A stretch of DNA of 64,000 bases. It comes from Pseudomonadota bacterium. Its GTDB lineage: Bacteria > Pseudomonadota > Gammaproteobacteria > Burkholderiales > Rhodocyclaceae. Of the stretch, positions 16,686 through 24,518 are shown piece by piece. The stretch lies in assembly GCA_018241725.1 (NCBI GenBank), contig JAFEDI010000108.1:62001-126000 (forward strand), in the 5' to 3' direction. Position numbers and translations under genes: made by a program. The notes under the pieces are model-generated. The model was not told where the DNA came from. It was given only the letters and a program-made list of their open reading frames with translations, and searched no databases. The first letter of the stretch is position 1, and each line of letters opens with the position of its first letter.

Positions 16686-17600
16686 TCAGATCGGCGTGGA
16701 GAATTGCACCCAGAACGAATTTCCCTTGGGCCCGTTCTCCACGTCCACTTCATGCAAGGCCTTGAAGACGATGCCGCTCGCCTTGTCGAAAGCGTAGAAG
16801 AGCTGCGGGCCGAGCCCGAGCTTCTTCAACCGGTTTCCGCCGGCTGCAGCACCGGCCTCGGCGCGGTCGTCGGAGAACTGGTAGGTGTGGTAGCCGGCCA
16901 GGGAGAGTTGCAGTTGCGGCATTGATGCCGGCCGGTAGCCGACGCTGAAATCGGTGTTCAGCACATTGCCGGAACGATAGCCGGTCGCCTTGTTGCGCTC
17001 GTTGAAGGATAGCGTGGGCGACAGGGAGAGCTCCCACGCCGGCGTAATGAACCACGTGAGGCCGAATTCCTGCACATAGGATCGGTAATTGCTGGTGGTA
17101 TTGGCCAGGCCATTACGGTCGAAATTGCCGAGCGGAACGAATCCGCTGAACCCGGTGAGCAGATGCAACGACGGCGACGGGGAATAGGTCAGATAGAGCG
17201 GCGTGAGGTAGACCTGATTGAATCCCGTGGCATCGTCCTGCATGCCGCCGATCCGCAATTTGGTGTAATCCGCCGAGGGAATCATGCCGCTGCTGAAGCG
17301 CACACCGCTTTCGGTCTGGTAATCCCAAGTATGGACGAAACGGAAGGCTTGCGCGTATTGCGTCAGCTTGAAGCCGGGAATGATCGACTTTCCGCCGCCA
17401 TCCACGAAACGGTTCGCGCTGTAGCGCACCGTATAGCTATAGAACTGCGTATTGCCGGGCGGCGGCAATAGCGCGGGAAGAATGGTATTGACGCCGAGAG
17501 GCCAGTTCGTCGCGCCGTTTTCGGTGGCGGCCACGTCGCGCGAATCGATGCTCAATCCCAGCGCCAGCGCGGCGCTGCAAAGCACGAGTTTCTTTTTCAT
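16686..17600 (-). CDS. Outer-membrane protein of the MetA/phenol-degradation transporter family
   Basis: 304 residues from the ATG at 17600 (GGAG nearby; a longer frame to 17636 is less likely). Signal peptide about 1-25 (MKKKLVLCSAALALGLSI), then alternating beta strands to the C-terminus ending FWVQFSTPI, as in a beta-barrel. Layout and strand content match the 'MetA-pathway of phenol degradation' family (SphX-like), which are outer-membrane channels encoded with aromatic or hydrophobic-compound catabolism. It follows the esterase gene by 93 bp on the same strand and probably belongs to its sigma-54 transcript, suggesting import of the BVMO pathway substrate. Confidence 0.8.
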   Translation of the reverse strand: MKKKLVLCSAALALGLSIDSRDVAATENGATNWPLGVNTILPALLPPPGNTQFYSYTVRYSANRFVDGGGKSIIPGFKLTQYAQAFRFVHTWDYQTESGVRFSSGMIPSADYTKLRIGGMQDDATGFNQVYLTPLYLTYSPSPSLHLLTGFSGFVPLGNFDRNGLANTTSNYRSYVQEFGLTWFITPAWELSLSPTLSFNERNKATGYRSGNVLNTDFSVGYRPASMPQLQLSLAGYHTYQFSDDRAEAGAAAGGNRLKKLGLGPQLFYAFDKASGIVFKALHEVDVENGPKGNSFWVQFSTPI

Positions 17601-17693: not shown

Positions 17694-18641
17694 TTATGAG
17701 TGCGCCAGCGTGGTGGCGAGGACACGGTCGATCTCGTCGGCGATCAGGCGGATGGCCCCGGCACTGGCCGGCAGCACGTTGATCATGGTGGCGAAGATGT
17801 GCATCTGCCCCGCAAAGCGGCGGTGGGTCACCGGCACACCGGCCGCCACCAGCTTCGCCGCGTAGGCATCGGCATCGCTATTGAGCACATCCATTTCCGC
17901 CCCGATGATCAGCGTGGGGGGAAGCTTGGAGACGTCCGCTTCGTGGAGCGGTGACGCATCCGGCTGATTACGCAGGGTCGTATCGGGCAGGTAATGGCTC
18001 CAGAACCAGGCCATGTCTTCCCGCGACAGCAGCAATTGAAAATCAGGATTGAGATAACTGTCGGTATCGAACCGGGCCTGGGTTACCGGATACAGCAGAA
18101 CCTGCATCGCCAGTTCGGGGCCCTGCCCCCGCGCAGCACGATTGGTCAGCACCGCGGCGAGATTGCCGCCGGCGCTGTCGCCCGACACGATGAGCGGCAG
18201 GGATGCCTGGCCAAACAGCCGGTTACGGGCTTCGGCAATCCAGTTCAATGCGGCCTGGCAGTCATCCAGCGCGGCGGGAAACGGATGCTCCGGCGCAAGA
18301 CGGTATTCGACGAGCACGACGGCGCAGCGGGACTGCTCCGCCAGCGTGCGCCCGAAGGCATCGTAATCGTCGATGGACAGCGTCACCCAGCCGCCGCCGT
18401 GGCAATGGAGAATCACACCACAGATGTCGTCGGACGGAATCAGCACGCGCACGCTGCAATGGCCGCCCGGTATCGGCAGCATTTCCTCCACGACGCTGTG
18501 CATTGACGGCCCACTGCCATAGGCGGGCCGGAAGCCGGCCATGAAGCGCCTGGCTTCATCAGGACTCATCTGGTGAAACGGCTTGGCGCCCATTTCTATT
18601 AGTTGTTGCAGCAACTGTGTCGATGCTTGATCGAGTGGCAT
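17694..18641 (-). CDS. Alpha/beta-hydrolase esterase of the HSL (hormone-sensitive lipase) family
   Basis: 315 residues from the ATG at 18641, preceded by AAAGGAGAC; an upstream in-frame start at 18674 lacks this. Oxyanion-hole motif HCHGGGWV and nucleophile motif VSGDSAGGNLAA are clear; the acid lies in IIGAEMDVLNSD and the base in FAGQMHIF, where the usual GMxHGF is altered to GQMHIF but keeps His. HSL-family enzymes hydrolyse short esters and lactones. Divergent placement from the XylR-type gene and shared control with the BVMO suggest it cleaves the ester or lactone formed by the BVMO. It carries its own sigma-54 promoter 45 bp upstream. Confidence 0.93.
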   Translation of the reverse strand: MPLDQASTQLLQQLIEMGAKPFHQMSPDEARRFMAGFRPAYGSGPSMHSVVEEMLPIPGGHCSVRVLIPSDDICGVILHCHGGGWVTLSIDDYDAFGRTLAEQSRCAVVLVEYRLAPEHPFPAALDDCQAALNWIAEARNRLFGQASLPLIVSGDSAGGNLAAVLTNRAARGQGPELAMQVLLYPVTQARFDTDSYLNPDFQLLLSREDMAWFWSHYLPDTTLRNQPDASPLHEADVSKLPPTLIIGAEMDVLNSDADAYAAKLVAAGVPVTHRRFAGQMHIFATMINVLPASAGAIRLIADEIDRVLATTLAHS

Positions 18642-18685
18642 TGTTCTTGTCTCCTTTGGTGATGTGCAAAGCACCCATGCCCATC

Positions 18686-18701
18686 AGCAACGGCCATGCC
18701 A
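18686..18701 (-). promoter_or_regulatory. Sigma-54 (-24/-12) promoter of the esterase transcript
   Basis: On the minus strand the bases read TGGCATGGCCGTTGCT, an exact fit to the sigma-54 consensus TGGCAYR-N4-TTGCW. It ends 45 bp upstream of the esterase ATG (18641), and a putative activator site lies 105 bp further upstream. This orientation and spacing are as expected for a XylR/DmpR-type activator. Confidence 0.85.
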
Positions 18702-18805
18702 CTGGACCCCAATGAAAGCAAAAAGCTATATTGATCATGCAATAACAGGATTTGATGCAATGCATCGAGAAAGGCCTTTCCTTGCGCCGCCACGGTGGGG
18801 GTTTT

Positions 18806-18840
18806 GAGAATTTGATGAAGTCGATTCATGAATTGATGAA
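18806..18840. promoter_or_regulatory. Upstream activator site 1 for the XylR-type regulator
   Basis: A/T-rich 35-bp element made of TGATGAA-like half sites (TTTGATGAAG, GATTCATGAA, TTGATGAA). It aligns without gaps to 20715-20749 in front of the BVMO, with most positions identical, including the AGAATTT and ATGAA blocks. It lies 105 bp upstream of the esterase -24 box and only 27 bp before the regulator's own GTG, so it could also mediate autoregulation. Known XylR/DmpR sites are similar TTGATCAA-type palindromes. Confidence 0.72.
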
Positions 18841-18867
18841 ACGGGCCTCGGCAGAAAGGCGTGATCA

Positions 18868-20577
18868 GTGAGCAAGAGCGGTAGCCCCCAGTACCCATCG
18901 GATGCCGACCTGTTGTCCCAGGTCCGTTTCGACCCGCCCCACGGCAAAGTGTGGTTCAACGAACAGCGCATGCTCCTGTTTCACGCATCGGGCATGGGCC
19001 TCCTGCGCAAGGAGCTCATCGAAACGCTGGGCCTGGAGCGGGCACGCGGGCTGCTGATGCGCTTCGGTTTCCACGCCGGCTTCAAGGATGCAGCGCTCGC
19101 CCGCAAGCTGCGGCCGGAGATCACGACGGCGGACGCCTTCCTGGTCGGCCCGCAACTGGCCTGCATCAAGGGGCTGGTGCAAGTGGAGCCGCTGGAACTG
19201 TCTTTCGACCTGTCCACCGGCGCCTTCATCGGCCGCTTCGAATGGACGGAATCCTACGAGGCCGAGGCCCATCAACAGCAGTTCGGGCTGGCGGCAGAGC
19301 CCGTGTGCTGGACCTTGATCGGCTATTCCAGCGGTTTCACCAGCTATTACATGGGCCGCAAGATCCTCTTCAAGGAGGAGACCTGCGCGGGCTGTGGCGC
19401 CGCCCACTGCCGCATCATCGGCAAGCCCGCCGAGGAATGGGCGGACCGCGCCGAACTGGAGAAATTCTACGAGCCCGATTCGGTAGCGGAAGAATTGCTA
19501 GCCCTGCGCACCCAGGTCTCGGAGTTGCAGGAAACGGTCCGCGCGGCGCGCTCCTCGCCGACCGACTCGGTCAGCTTCATCGGACGTTCGGCCGGCTTCC
19601 TGAAAGCAAAGGATCTCATCGAACGAGGTGCGAAAAGCCGCGCATCGGTGCTGCTGCTTGGCGAAACCGGCGTTGGCAAGGAAGTCTTCGCCCGCAGCCT
19701 GCACGCGCTGTCGGATCGGTCCGCCCAGCCCTTCGTGGCGGTGAACTGCGCTTCGATTCCGTCTGACCTGATCGCGTCGGAACTCTTCGGCGTGGAACGG
19801 GGCGCGTTCACCGGCGCCAATGTCAGCCGCGAGGGCAAGTTCGAACGCGCCGATGGCGGCACGATCTTCCTCGACGAAGTGGTGGAACTGACGCCCGGTG
19901 CCCAGGCCGCGTTGTTGCGAGTGCTGCAGGAGGGCGAACTGGAGCGGGTCGGCGGCACCTTCGTGCGCAAGATCGACGTGCGGGTCGTCGCCGCCACCAA
20001 CGAAGACCTGCAGGAGGCCGTGAAAAAGGGGAGATTCCGCGCCGATCTGTTCTATCGGCTCAATGTGTATCCGGTGTCGATCCCGCCGCTGCGGGAGCGC
20101 GCAGAAGACATACCCTTGCTGGCCCGGCACTTCCTCGGCAAGTTCCACGCGCTGTACAAGAAGACCACACTGGGCATTTCGGACCGGGCCCTGCGCGCAC
20201 TGAAGAACTACGCCTGGCCCGGCAACATCCGCGAGCTCGAGAACATGATCGAGCGCGGCGTGATCTTGACCGACCATAACCGCAGCATCGACATCGACTC
20301 GCTGTTCGCCTCCCCGCCCGATGAAGATACCGGCCATACCCTCGTTTCGCAGACCGGGGCCCTCAAGCTGGACAGGGAACGCCCCCCGACCCGCTCGCCC
20401 TACGACGAGCTGAGCGTCAGATTACTGAACGAGGGCTTCTCCATTTCCGATTTCGAGTCCGCGATCACCCGCAACGCCATGGCCCTGGCCAACGACAATG
20501 TGACACAAGCCGCCCGCCTGATCGGCATGACCCGGGCCCAACTCGCCTATCGGCTGGAAAAAATCAAAGGGGAATAG
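18868..20577 (+). CDS. Sigma-54-dependent activator of the XylR/DmpR/MopR family
   Basis: 569 residues from GTG 18868. Order: XylR-type ligand-binding domain (about 15-125), V4R effector domain (about 130-190, with the CAGCGAAHCR cysteines), B-linker (about 200-235), AAA+ domain (about 236-470) with Walker A GETGVGKE (K271) and the sigma-54 contact loop GAFTGA (312-317), then a Fis-type HTH (NVTQAARLIGMTRAQLAYRL). In this family the N-terminal domain binds an aromatic or cyclic effector and relieves repression of the ATPase. It sits between two sigma-54 promoters and matching upstream elements, so esterase-outer-membrane protein (left) and BVMO (right) are its clear candidate targets. The effector is probably the ketone/alcohol substrate (inference). 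Confidence 0.95.
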   Translation: MSKSGSPQYPSDADLLSQVRFDPPHGKVWFNEQRMLLFHASGMGLLRKELIETLGLERARGLLMRFGFHAGFKDAALARKLRPEITTADAFLVGPQLACIKGLVQVEPLELSFDLSTGAFIGRFEWTESYEAEAHQQQFGLAAEPVCWTLIGYSSGFTSYYMGRKILFKEETCAGCGAAHCRIIGKPAEEWADRAELEKFYEPDSVAEELLALRTQVSELQETVRAARSSPTDSVSFIGRSAGFLKAKDLIERGAKSRASVLLLGETGVGKEVFARSLHALSDRSAQPFVAVNCASIPSDLIASELFGVERGAFTGANVSREGKFERADGGTIFLDEVVELTPGAQAALLRVLQEGELERVGGTFVRKIDVRVVAATNEDLQEAVKKGRFRADLFYRLNVYPVSIPPLRERAEDIPLLARHFLGKFHALYKKTTLGISDRALRALKNYAWPGNIRELENMIERGVILTDHNRSIDIDSLFASPPDEDTGHTLVSQTGALKLDRERPPTRSPYDELSVRLLNEGFSISDFESAITRNAMALANDNVTQAARLIGMTRAQLAYRLEKIKGE

Positions 20578-20624
20578 AAAGCGCAAGCGGGCTCGCCCGC
20601 CCCACACATCAATCCTCCAGCCGT

Positions 20625-20670
20625 CGCGCCCCCGGAAACACAGCATTTGTCTTGTGCGTCCGGGGGCGCG
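20625..20670 (+). terminator. Strong GC hairpin after the XylR-type gene
   Basis: CGCGCCCCCGGA (20625-20636) pairs perfectly with TCCGGGGGCGCG (20659-20670), giving a 12-bp stem and 22-nt loop 47 bp after the regulator stop. There is no T-run after it, so intrinsic termination is uncertain. It may insulate the BVMO promoter from read-through. Confidence 0.45.
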
Positions 20671-20714
20671 TCACGTCCAGCTCCCACAATAGATTTATCC
20701 CTGATTGGCGATTT

Positions 20715-20749
20715 CAGAATTTCATGAAATCGCTTGATGATTTTATGAA
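20715..20749. promoter_or_regulatory. Upstream activator site 2 for the XylR-type regulator
   Basis: 35-bp element aligning without gaps to 18806-18840 (shared AGAATTT, ATGAA, TCG, ATGA and ATGAA blocks in the same spacing). It lies 78 bp upstream of the BVMO -24 box. A second copy before the second sigma-54 promoter of the same module is strong evidence that these are the regulator's binding sites. Confidence 0.75.
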
Positions 20750-20826
20750 TCGACACACAGTCAGCTCGTCGATCCTTATTCATCCATTTTTATTCAAGCC
20801 CCTGTTTTGTCTTGCCTATTTTTCTT

Positions 20827-20842
20827 TGGCACAGGCTTTGCT
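20827..20842 (+). promoter_or_regulatory. Sigma-54 (-24/-12) promoter of the BVMO gene
   Basis: TGGCACAGGCTTTGCT matches the sigma-54 consensus exactly at the -24 (TGGCAC) and -12 (TTGCT) boxes. It lies 128 bp upstream of the BVMO ATG, in the 393-bp gap that otherwise holds only the hairpin at 20625 and the activator site at 20715. Confidence 0.88.
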
Positions 20843-20970: not shown

Positions 20971-22608
20971 ATGACGCAAGCCCTCCCTGAAAACCGGGCC
21001 CCTTCCTTTGCCGACGCGGTTGTCGTCGGCGCCGGCTTCGCCGGGCTTTACATGCTGCATCTGCTCAGGGACACCCTGAAGCTGAAGGCGCGGGTATTCG
21101 AAAGTGCAGATGGTGTTGGAGGGACGTGGTATTGGAATCGCTACCCGGGCGCGCGTTGCGACATCCCCAGCCACCACTATTCCTTTTCGTTCTCTCCGGA
21201 ACTCGAGCAAGAATGGACATGGTCGGAGAAGTACGCCGCCCAGCCGGAGATCCTCGAATACCTGGAATTCGTGGCACGGAAATTCGACCTGAACAAGGAC
21301 ATCACATTCAATACCCGCGTGAAGTCCGCGCATTTCGACGACGGGCAGCAGCGCTGGATCGTCACGACGGATAGCGGCGAAACCGTGATTGCGCGCTTCT
21401 TCATTCCCGCCGTCGGGACCTTGTCGGACGCGAACATCCCCCAATTCAAAGGGCACGGCAGCTTCGAGGGACAGGTGCTGTTCACCGGCAAATGGCCCAG
21501 GGAGGGCGTCAATTTTGCAGGCAAGCGCGTCGGCATCATCGGGACCGGTGCCACCGCCATGCAGGCCATTCCGGTGATTGCCGAACAGGCCGCGCACCTG
21601 ACCGTCTTTCAACGGACACCCAACTACGGCACGCCGCTGCGTAATGAGCCGATGAATCCCGCGGTAGACCGCGAAGTGAAACAGCGCTATCGCACACTCC
21701 GGCAGCAAGCCTGGGACTCCTTCGCCGGCGTACCCTTCGAGCGCCTCAAGCCCTCTGCCCTCGCCGACAGCCCCGAGGCGCGCCGCCAGCAGTACGAGGC
21801 CTGCTGGGAAGATGGCGGCTTCAGCCTGTGGATCGGCTGCTACGGCGACACGCTATTCGACCCGACGGCCAACAGATACGCCGCCGACTTCGTACGTGAA
21901 AAGATCCGCTCGCGGGTCAAGGATCCGGCGGTAGCCGAGCTGCTCTGCCCGCCCGAGAGCCAGGCCTACGGCACCAAGCGCCAGCCCTGCGAAACCAATT
22001 ACTTCGAGACCTACAACCGGGACAACGTGCAGCTGGTCGACATCCGGAAGAGCGCCATCGAGGAGATTCTCCCCACCGGGCTGCGGACCGCCGACGCCGA
22101 ATACCAGTTCGACATCCTGATCTACGCCACCGGCTTCGATGCCTTCACCGGTGCGATGTTCAAGATGGATATCCGTGGCGAGGGCGGCAAAACCCTGAAG
22201 GATTACTGGTCGGCCGGCCCGCGCACTTTGTATGGCCTGAGCGCCCACGGCTTCCCCAACATGTTCTTCATCACCGGTCCGCAAAGCCCGTCGGTGCTGT
22301 TCAACATGCCGCTGGGCATCGAGATGCACTGTGAATGGATCGCCAACTGCATCACCTACATGGATCAGCACGGCTACACGGCGATCAGCGCGAACACGGC
22401 GGAAGAAGATCGCTGGATCCGGCACACCAAGGAGCTGGCGGATGCGACCCTGCTGCCCGAAGCCACCTCCTGGTACCTGGGTGCCAACATCCCTGGCAAG
22501 CCGCGCGTGTTCATGGTGTATCTGGGCGGCGGCAAGCACTACAAGGAGGTGATCAGCCGCAGTGCCGCGGAAGGCTATGCGGGCTTCACGCTGAAACCAG
22601 CGCGCTGA
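20971..22608 (+). CDS. Type I Baeyer-Villiger monooxygenase (cyclohexanone-monooxygenase-like)
   Basis: 545 residues. Two Rossmann motifs frame the fold: VVGAGFAGLYMLHLL (FAD, about 17-31) and VGIIGTGATAMQAIP (NADPH, about 188-202). The BVMO fingerprint between them reads FEGQVLFTGKWP, in which the normally invariant His (FxGxxxHxxxW) is Phe. Other hallmarks are present: GGTWYWNRYPGARCDIPSH, KRQPCETNYFETYNRDNVQL with the conserved Arg, and DILIYATGFDAFTGAM. The enzyme should insert oxygen next to a ketone using NADPH and O2, giving an ester or lactone for the neighbouring esterase. It has its own sigma-54 promoter and upstream element. Confidence 0.93.
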   Translation: MTQALPENRAPSFADAVVVGAGFAGLYMLHLLRDTLKLKARVFESADGVGGTWYWNRYPGARCDIPSHHYSFSFSPELEQEWTWSEKYAAQPEILEYLEFVARKFDLNKDITFNTRVKSAHFDDGQQRWIVTTDSGETVIARFFIPAVGTLSDANIPQFKGHGSFEGQVLFTGKWPREGVNFAGKRVGIIGTGATAMQAIPVIAEQAAHLTVFQRTPNYGTPLRNEPMNPAVDREVKQRYRTLRQQAWDSFAGVPFERLKPSALADSPEARRQQYEACWEDGGFSLWIGCYGDTLFDPTANRYAADFVREKIRSRVKDPAVAELLCPPESQAYGTKRQPCETNYFETYNRDNVQLVDIRKSAIEEILPTGLRTADAEYQFDILIYATGFDAFTGAMFKMDIRGEGGKTLKDYWSAGPRTLYGLSAHGFPNMFFITGPQSPSVLFNMPLGIEMHCEWIANCITYMDQHGYTAISANTAEEDRWIRHTKELADATLLPEATSWYLGANIPGKPRVFMVYLGGGKHYKEVISRSAAEGYAGFTLKPAR

Positions 22609-22649: not shown

Positions 22650-23714
22650 TCAGGGCTCCGGTCGCAGCGGCCGTTTTTCGCCTCTTCCATGCAATGCATA
22701 ATGAAGCCACGCATCCATGCCGGCCGCTGCCACGTCTGGATTGGCGGCCAGGTACAACTCGGGGTCGAATGCCAGATGTCCCCTCTTCGACTCCTCGATG
22801 AAGTTCTCGGGAAGCTCTCGACCAACATAGCGGCTGGCCATGACTTCACCCCGGGAAATATCGGTGGGGCGCCGGAAATATACATGCCCGTAAAAGGGAT
22901 CCGACCATAGGGGCGTGTAATACGCGCAGTCTTCAAACAGGTAATGGGTAACCTGAGACCAGCGGGTCAGATCCTTGTTCAACTGAATGCTGCCACCATG
23001 CATAAGGTTGGCACACCAGATCAGGGCCTGTCCCTTCTTGCAGACAAAAGTCTCGGGCCTGGCGTGATTGGCTTCGATGAGCGCCCGCCACATCTCCTCG
23101 TAGATACCCTGTCCAGGTCTTTGCGGCATCTCGCTGACGCATTGGCCGATATGTTCGTTGGTGTAGATCGGCCATTTATGGCTGCCAGGGTAATACTCGA
23201 GAGGACCGTTCTCCGCCGTAATATCCTCCAGCGCGACCCACACGCCGCACATGAAACGCTCTGGGTTGCTACTGAAATGGACCGCATCGGTATGAACATG
23301 CTGCTGACTGCCAACCGGAAAATTCAGCGTCTGGAAAGGCCATGCCCGCCGTCCGTACAAGAGGCTCAGCAAATCCATCACCTTTGGATTGGATGCCAGG
23401 CGGCGGACGTTCTGATTAGTCTTCCATGCATCCATGATGCGCAAACTCGCGCCATTCCGATGCCCATGGGAGTGCCACATTTCCCAGTCGAACTGATCGT
23501 GCAGATCCGCCTTGATCGACTCCGCGATTCCATCGAACTCCGGCTCGGGGAAATCGATGACAGCGTAACCCTTCATGAAGAGATCGACAGCGATCTGCCG
23601 GGTCGGTGCATCCAACTCCAGTTGCTCGATGATTCTGGCGAAAAAAGGTGATTCTATGTGCGGGACACCGGGCAACAACCTGGTGTAGTCAATTGACTTG
23701 GCGCTGGCGTTCAT
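22650..23714 (-). CDS. Phytanoyl-CoA dioxygenase (PhyH) family Fe(II)/2-oxoglutarate oxygenase
   Basis: 354 residues from the ATG at 23714; the frame stays open to 23813, but those residues look non-coding. The double-stranded beta-helix core has the iron triad as HTD (VHTDAVHF) and a distal His (ANLMHGGSIQLN). The last ~45 residues contain FDPELYLAANPDVAAAGMDA then HYALHGRGE, a short motif found in repeat-bearing surface or glycan-related proteins and not part of the PhyH fold. PhyH proteins hydroxylate small molecules, lipids or peptides; the substrate is not identifiable. Convergent with the BVMO gene; it may or may not belong to that module. Confidence 0.83.
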   Translation of the reverse strand: MNASAKSIDYTRLLPGVPHIESPFFARIIEQLELDAPTRQIAVDLFMKGYAVIDFPEPEFDGIAESIKADLHDQFDWEMWHSHGHRNGASLRIMDAWKTNQNVRRLASNPKVMDLLSLLYGRRAWPFQTLNFPVGSQQHVHTDAVHFSSNPERFMCGVWVALEDITAENGPLEYYPGSHKWPIYTNEHIGQCVSEMPQRPGQGIYEEMWRALIEANHARPETFVCKKGQALIWCANLMHGGSIQLNKDLTRWSQVTHYLFEDCAYYTPLWSDPFYGHVYFRRPTDISRGEVMASRYVGRELPENFIEESKRGHLAFDPELYLAANPDVAAAGMDAWLHYALHGRGEKRPLRPEP

Positions 23715-23819
23715 TCTCGGCTCGGCGTCTTTTCTGGTGGCTTGCTTGCGATAGTAGCAAAGTTCGCCAAACCAGCCCGCGCCCTCAAGATCGATCCGGT
23801 GTACTTGAAGCAACCGGGT

Positions 23820-24401
23820 CTAATCTGGACGCGGGTTCAGGAAACCCCGCATCACCCGCGTCAGGCGCGGCATCACGACCCAGGTCATGGTCATGACGAT
23901 AAGCCCGGTGAGCAAGGCAACCTTGGGCAGGAAGGGCAGATACGGGCGCACCAACGGCTCGATCAGCCACAGGACCAGCGACACCGTGGGGAAGATGCCC
24001 ATCCACGTCACCAGCGCCATGCGCGCCCGCGGTGGGTGCATCGTCGCAGGCACCACGGCGGGCGTGAACCAGGCCTCAAGCCCCGAAAGGCGCCGATACT
24101 CCGGATCGGTGTCGGCCAGCTCGCGCATCCGGGCCAGCAGACCGGACCGTGCCGCGCTGACATCCCAATTGGCGAGCGCTTGTTCCGATGCAAAGCGGAT
24201 GATGACCTGGTGCTCTCCGTCCGGCTCAGCGGCCGGGATAAGTTCCGCACCCAGAAAGCCCTGGCAGGCCTGCATCTGCTGGAACATCTCGCCGACAAGA
24301 GCTTCATACGCAGCCTCATTTCCTGCCCGGATGTGGCGGCGGTCGACGCGGATAACGGGGTTCGCAGTACCTGGCTGGGTCTTGGTGGCGCTGTTTTCCA
24401 T
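23820..24401 (-). CDS. ABM-domain (antibiotic biosynthesis monooxygenase-like) protein with C-terminal membrane segments
   Basis: 193 residues from the ATG at 24401 (GAGGA upstream; the frame extends to 24515 without a better start). N-terminal ferredoxin-like ABM domain (about 15-105: VIRVDRRHIRAGNEAAYEAL, CQGFLGAELIPA). It is followed by two hydrophobic segments (about 125-148 and 157-178). This matches a family of membrane-anchored ABM proteins of unknown function. It is divergent from the LysR gene at 24519 and lies 105 bp upstream of the PhyH gene on the same strand, so a LysR-controlled pair is plausible. Confidence 0.75.
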   Translation of the reverse strand: MENSATKTQPGTANPVIRVDRRHIRAGNEAAYEALVGEMFQQMQACQGFLGAELIPAAEPDGEHQVIIRFASEQALANWDVSAARSGLLARMRELADTDPEYRRLSGLEAWFTPAVVPATMHPPRARMALVTWMGIFPTVSLVLWLIEPLVRPYLPFLPKVALLTGLIVMTMTWVVMPRLTRVMRGFLNPRPD

Positions 24402-24518
24402 GATCTTCCTCACAATGTTTGATGGCTTTGCGCTGCTCGATTGGAGTATGGCGATCATCGATATATAGTTGAAATCGATTGTTGATATTCGACGAATCCA
24501 GCAGACGGATACCATATC

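Follow-up and report, generated by a model that had tools for sequence, protein, structure and literature searches.

Does one sigma-54-dependent activator of the XylR/DmpR type control both a Baeyer-Villiger monooxygenase (BVMO) and an esterase that could act on its product? The question is raised by a 64,000-nucleotide stretch of a Rhodocyclaceae genome (assembly GCA_018241725.1, contig JAFEDI010000108.1, positions 62,001 to 126,000 of the forward strand; hereafter the window, in whose own numbering all positions are given). In this window the gene for a XylR/DmpR-type activator of 569 aa (18868-20577, plus strand) lies between a divergently oriented esterase gene (17694-18641, minus strand) and a gene for a BVMO-like flavin monooxygenase (20971-22608, plus strand), and an earlier note, made from the letters of the DNA, had read these genes as a complete sigma-54 regulatory circuit.

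Combining gene families, promoter boxes, upstream elements and their conservation across four species, the most distant with proteins 72-81% identical, we suggest that the locus is a self-contained sigma-54 catabolic switch in which the activator, acting on both upstream elements, would co-induce an esterase-channel unit and the BVMO gene, the two enzymes forming a ketone-to-acid pair; we hold this reading to be highly probable. In this model, (i) the activator would bind at 18806-18840 and 20715-20749, (ii) a small hydrophobic effector would fill the V4R sensor pocket, upon which the activator would assemble and open sigma-54 RNA polymerase at both promoters, (iii) the minus-strand promoter would drive the esterase and channel genes and the plus-strand promoter the BVMO gene, and (iv) the channel would admit the substrate, the BVMO would insert oxygen beside its carbonyl, and the esterase would split the resulting ester into an acid and an alcohol or phenol. 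Binding, activation, co-induction, the inducer and the substrate are what we infer from this evidence. The two boxes, the two elements and a XylR/DmpR-type sigma-54 circuit with an unusual target are confirmed as real at the level of sequence, and the regulator very probably turns on the BVMO and esterase genes.

Sigma-54 boxes and upstream elements

One -24/-12 box lies on the minus strand before the esterase-channel unit (18701-18686, TGGCATGGCCGTTGCT) and the other on the plus strand before the BVMO gene (20827-20842, TGGCACAGGCTTTGCT). The two had been called exact sigma-54 promoters; they are indeed strong boxes, beyond chance, and not literally exact, each keeping GG and GC and agreeing with TGGCACGNNNNTTGCW at 11 of its 12 fixed positions. 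The 64-kb window has no further site scoring at least 11/12, and such a site is held by 0.54% of dinucleotide shuffles (5000 per intergenic region). Genome-wide there are 26 occurrences of the pattern TGGCAC-N5-TTGCW, which the plus box fits and the minus box does not, compared with 5 of its reversed control. The sigma-54 DNA-binding family is matched once in this genome. Counterparts of both boxes are found in two further genomes of the same genus (G020 and G012) and in one of a different genus (G121). Across these four species 14 of the 16 columns of the minus box and 13 of the 16 of the plus box are identical, versus 54/175 and 60/340 of the remaining columns; the counterpart of the minus box in G012 matches the consensus at 12/12 positions.

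Each box is accompanied by a 35-bp element, the presumed activator site. Element 1 (18806-18840) is separated from the minus box by 104 bp and ends 27 bp short of the regulator's start codon, and element 2 (20715-20749) lies 77 bp before the plus box. Both are read on the plus strand though the promoters diverge in direction, and in this orientation they agree gap-free at 28/35 positions; with one of them reversed in the same register, 3/35 agree. The best ungapped 35-mer in 1000 dinucleotide-shuffled pairs averaged 20.8 identities and reached at most 25, so that none attained 28 and the gap-free alignment of the earlier note holds up. By inspection, each element contains three units resembling TTNATGAA, with offsets of 0, +13 and +21. 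Against the window, element 1 is identical at 30/35 positions in G012 and 18/35 in G121, and element 2 at 26/35 and 25/35, respectively; over the four species 16/35 columns of element 1 and 19/35 of element 2 are kept, compared with the same background of remaining columns. The two elements of G012 match best with one of them reversed (27/35; 0/300 shuffles), which suits a dyad, and element 1 of G121 forms a dyad at 17/22 positions that 0/200 shuffles reach.

The earlier note had proposed a genome-wide scan for the shared element. A pattern built from the two elements, allowed up to 3 mismatches in the 5.9-Mb genome, matches these two places only (control, 0). A profile of the eight elements of the four species, which contains the window's two elements and so recovers them by construction, gave no convincing third site, the best elsewhere having E 0.38 with 150 of the 362 first-look candidates scored. 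Because neither scan found a convincing third element, a wider regulon for the activator is rejected, and at this search sensitivity the regulon appears local. Self-control of the regulator via element 1 is plausible from its position; autoregulation is known for XylR.

The activator and its sensor pocket

In a Pfam scan of the 10 window genes around the module, the regulator showed the domains XylR_N, V4R, Sigma54_activat (AAA+) and HTH_8 (Fis-type), all over the Pfam cut-offs, V4R narrowly (32.4 versus 31 bits), and the GAFTGA loop that contacts sigma-54 is present in its translation. Its closest solved relatives are DmpR/CapR, with 58% identity to DmpR over 462 residues, and it is 51% identical over 566 residues to the activator beside xylS on plasmid pWW0, which we take to be XylR. 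This four-domain architecture and these relatives bear out its assignment as a XylR-type activator. Against the MobR model NF041906 (NCBIfam) it scores 679.8 bits, below the curated cut-off of 999.

The pocket itself departs from that of the phenol sensors. As described for DmpR, the phenol hydroxyl is held between His100 and Trp128, the His being conserved in phenol sensors and a Tyr in XylR (PMC7264223), and PheR, PcrS and EtpR are described as keeping both His and Trp (PMC10715001). We aligned sensor domains from matches at E <=1e-15 over at least 150 residues with identical sequences removed, giving 43 rows that include DmpR and, twice, the window protein (from the window and from L009). 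The His100 position is occupied by His in 37 rows, by Arg in one, the G054-cluster regulator discussed below, and by Ala in five; the Ala rows are all four orthologues, the window's being counted twice. Trp128 and the Zn ligands are kept in the four orthologues, and in the pWW0 activator a Tyr stands in place of the His, in agreement with the published description (PMC7264223). The His/Trp pair that marks the phenol-sensing subgroup (DmpR, MopR, PoxR, PheR) is thus half lost in the four orthologues, with Trp kept and His replaced by Ala.

This altered pocket goes beyond what the earlier note had seen. By the His test the predicted regulator falls outside the DmpR kind of phenol sensor, and with its His replaced by Ala we reject phenol sensing like that of DmpR as the default reading. 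Since the residue that would anchor a phenol is lost, a simple phenol is probably not the effector; a ketone, aryl or alkyl, or a hydrophobic precursor of greater bulk seems more likely. A larger or non-phenolic ligand would fit the pocket better and would not be held via a phenol hydroxyl in the DmpR way.

Target genes, their distribution and alternative readings

The esterase is a 315-aa alpha/beta-hydrolase of the HSL family (PF07859, Abhydrolase_3, E 6.1e-66) whose closest solved relatives are esterases, and both the HGGGW oxyanion motif and GDSAGG, with the GDSAG nucleophile elbow, are present in its sequence and alignment. It most likely starts at the ATG at 18641 behind GGAG rather than at the GTG at 18674. 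The outer-membrane channel-like protein (16686-17600, minus strand; Phenol_MetA_deg, PF13557, E 4.5e-49) starts at the ATG at 17600, preceded by GGAGACAA, 93 bp past the esterase stop, and is probably co-transcribed with the esterase. Pfam and solved relatives, both read from sequence, support the families proposed earlier for the channel, the HSL-type esterase and the BVMO-type enzyme.

The module is conserved as a block. The order porin-esterase-regulator-BVMO recurs in G020, with the four genes 90-98% identical, and in G012, where they are 78-90% identical. Eight other window genes were looked for in the 19-kb stretch of G012 and none turned up; because these flanking genes are missing there, the four genes appear to behave as a unit. 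In G121 the esterase (72%), regulator (77-79%) and BVMO (81%) stand in the same order, and the channel query found no match in the 20-kb stretch. Among 395 sampled genomes of the family (at most three first-look candidates were scored per genome), five carry a BVMO at least 80% identical to that of the window, and the regulator orthologue is found in four, all among those five and each adjoining the BVMO; 369 sampled genomes of the class, with the same limit on candidates scored, gave no other regulator orthologue at E 1e-200. The fifth BVMO genome, G054, has a BVMO of 81% identity, two long minus-strand frames and then a 57% esterase and a different XylR-type regulator (L055 8893-16990, L150). 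Its logic is similar, with another regulator.

More distant relatives separate the enzymes from the switch. We took the best 80 of 588 named genomes with BVMO relatives (48-68% identity); in 48 of the 80 the fetched flanks reach 5 kb or more to either side. Of the 80, 22 carry an esterase homologue no more than 1 kb from the BVMO, and none gave an activator match at E 1e-20 on the fetched flanks. Because of these counts, the BVMO and esterase look like a widespread pair and the XylR-type switch like a local addition. The linkage of BVMO and activator had been called notable, and the regulator is indeed the unusual part; that the BVMO-esterase neighbourhood is itself common had been missed. In a Cycloclasticus metagenome bin (L061 7015-9617) an esterase and a BVMO (68%) lacking the fingerprint His discussed below are adjacent on one strand, with no activator match on the fetched flanks and with neighbouring frames resembling phenylalanyl-tRNA synthetase genes (judged by eye, without a family search). 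At other XylR-type loci a box scoring at least 11 lies within 5 kb of the regulator in 4 of 17 fetched stretches, too few for a family-wide element. On plasmids, 54 records hold a relative of the regulator and 132 a relative of the BVMO (60 of the 132 listed), with no accession common to the two lists and every best place below 60% identity among the matches listed; a scan of viral contigs gave one 42-residue match.

The relatives of XylR and DmpR mostly control aromatic pathways, and the best-surviving alternative is that the circuit is real and part of such a pathway, the BVMO acting on ring-ketone or benzophenone-type intermediates and the activator sensing the parent aromatic. We regard this as possible, if clearly second to a ketone-to-acid switch. 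The best plasmid relative of the regulator adjoins genes annotated as aromatic or toluene-type monooxygenase, and in 4 of the 7 loci fetched from genus g104 a BVMO of 52-56% identity and a different XylR-type gene, whose sensor is 32-34% identical, are ~6.5 kb apart, with frames resembling Rieske oxygenases between the two in L169 (by eye, no family search). Set against this, the 10 window genes scanned around the module include no ring-oxygenase, and G012 keeps the four genes together without the eight flanking genes in its 19-kb stretch. In four g104 loci (L169, L172, L173 and L174) the BVMO has Ala at the fingerprint His, the regulators have Leu for the pocket Trp, and sigma-54-like boxes lie nearby.

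A second alternative concerns the flavoprotein, a type I BVMO-like enzyme of 545 aa (Pfam Pyr_redox_3/FMO-like). Its closest solved relatives are steroid monooxygenase (4ap1, 53% identity) and phenylacetone monooxygenase (1w4x), which act on steroid methyl and aryl-alkyl ketones. An acetate ester as the product would be a guess from these relatives, which indicate a substrate class only. The first fingerprint, [A/G]GxWxxxx[F/Y]P[G/M]xxxD, is intact (GGTWYWNRYPGARCD). In the second, FxGxxxHxxxW[P/D], the His is replaced by Phe171 and the remainder of the motif fits (FEGQVLFTGKWP); this loss, too, is a feature beyond the earlier note. Mutation of this residue is reported to weaken a related enzyme. 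The conserved Arg in the active site of BVMOs has a catalytic role. Among 100 aligned BVMOs (99 loci and the window) the His is present in 75, and Arg337 and Asp64 in all 100; both overall homology and the conserved active-site Arg are in place. The window BVMO falls within an 18-member group (FastTree local support 0.965) in which F, V, L, A, S or M replaces the His, and seven further losses are scattered on the tree; changes between His and other residues number 7, versus 22.4 on average and never fewer than 17 when the labels were shuffled 500 times. The BVMO sequences in PMC4498894 are described as curated for both fingerprints, and surveys demanding FxGxxxHxxxW would be expected to omit this whole group.

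The replacement by Phe171 and a whole group without the His would suit an enzyme that is not a Baeyer-Villiger enzyme and carries out another oxygenation, such as sulfur or nitrogen oxidation, with the hydrolase acting on an unrelated ester. We consider this unlikely: Arg337, Asp64 and the first fingerprint are intact, the esterase neighbours recur in the named relatives, and the position tolerates change, because the His is also missing in the seven scattered relatives. A doubtful extension of the switch model, no better than possible, is that the regulator is a dedicated ketone sensor of the XylR family whose pocket was opened to a non-phenolic carbonyl compound when the His that anchors the hydroxyl was lost, that it was recruited as a unit to the BVMO-esterase pair, and that the flavoenzyme group lost its fingerprint His perhaps once and is still active.

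Several observations weigh against the proposed switch. With the fingerprint His missing, Baeyer-Villiger activity is not guaranteed. In the window, the region of each element holds a better dyad than the element itself; in G121 elements 1 and 2 share 21/35 positions, a value reached by 178/300 shuffles, and element 1 of this genome resembles that of the window at close to the background level. For DmpR-type sites '~100-200 bp' is given (PMC7264223), and the element-box distances fall at the short end of this range or below it. In G054 the regulator is only 44% identical and has Arg at the His100 position, the boxes match at 10/12, and no shared element stands out beyond shuffles (268/300). 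Some of this would suit elements that serve a different regulator or remain from a promoter duplication, the neighbouring XylR-type gene acting elsewhere: binding by its product is presumed, and taken on their own the two G121 elements show no likeness beyond shuffles. The elements lie on either side of the regulator gene, its orthologue sits there in 4/4 genomes, and the genome holds no convincing third element, which makes this explanation improbable to a high degree. That boxes and AT-rich elements are chance sequence, as the short sigma-54 consensus might allow, is ruled out by the shuffles of both and by the retention of the boxes in a different genus, and we give it practically no weight.

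Other features of the locus lie outside the circuit. A GC-rich inverted repeat at 20625-20670, between the regulator stop and element 2, has 18-nt arms that are 89% complementary and is the best dyad of its region (0/200 shuffles); no T run follows it, and it is perhaps the terminator of the regulator gene. A similar repeat in G121 is within shuffle range (27/200), and G012 lacks that stretch. A scan for sigma-70 promoters and terminators did no better than shuffles. Downstream, a PhyH-type dioxygenase gene (22650-23813) is convergent with the BVMO gene and adjoins a gene for a 231-aa protein without a Pfam match (23820-24515); the 231-aa protein is present in the G020 stretch, in which the dioxygenase was not found.

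If the proposed switch is correct, a ketone-linked effector class would be added to a sensor family widely used for biosensing, in the form of a compact switch of one regulator and two promoters that would also give a native inducer handle for the window BVMO. The group without the His makes the role of this residue testable in natural variants.

Comparison with known systems

By the structural features examined, including sigma-54 boxes and putative activator sites near the regulator gene at spacings at or below the usual range, the module is predicted to be a XylR/DmpR-type circuit. XylR of the TOL plasmid pWW0, the toluene/xylene activator, has the same domain order and is likewise divergent from its neighbour, xylS there and the esterase gene here; xylS is under sigma-54 control. 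The XylR system differs in its target genes and in the Tyr at the pocket position, which is Ala in the window regulator, and the xylS-xylR gap holds no site like the window elements (best 21/35). The phenol activators DmpR/CapR, MopR and PoxR, which control phenol hydroxylase genes, are close in sequence and share Trp128 and the Zn ligands with the window regulator. They differ in the phenol-anchoring His100, Ala here, and in their targets, a BVMO and an esterase here.

For the wiring of a regulator to a BVMO, the closest precedent is the cpn cluster of Comamonas sp. NCIMB 9872 (CpnR, CpnB and CpnC), in which Iwaki et al. in 2002 reportedly described an NtrC-type regulator together with genes for a BVMO and a lactone hydrolase that are preceded by sigma-54 elements; that cluster is said to serve a cyclopentanone pathway, in which it differs from the module. 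No case of a BVMO controlled by a XylR-type regulator turned up in a literature search with little coverage of subscription papers. EtpR of Aromatoleum aromaticum EbN1 (p-ethylphenol and p-hydroxyacetophenone) is described as a one-component sigma-54 regulator with a V4R domain, whose pathway runs through a ketone; it differs in keeping His and Trp and in that its ketone passes to a carboxylase, not a BVMO (PMC10715001). On the side of the enzymes, the solved relative 4ap1 has the fingerprint His where the alignment places Phe in the window BVMO. BpfC of Sphingobium yanoikuyae DN12 is likewise said to keep FxGxxxHxxxW, and the main text of that report mentions no regulator; BpfC and the alpha/beta hydrolase BpfD are described as a BVMO and a hydrolase catalysing consecutive steps on a benzophenone, like the pair proposed for the module (PMC12724174).

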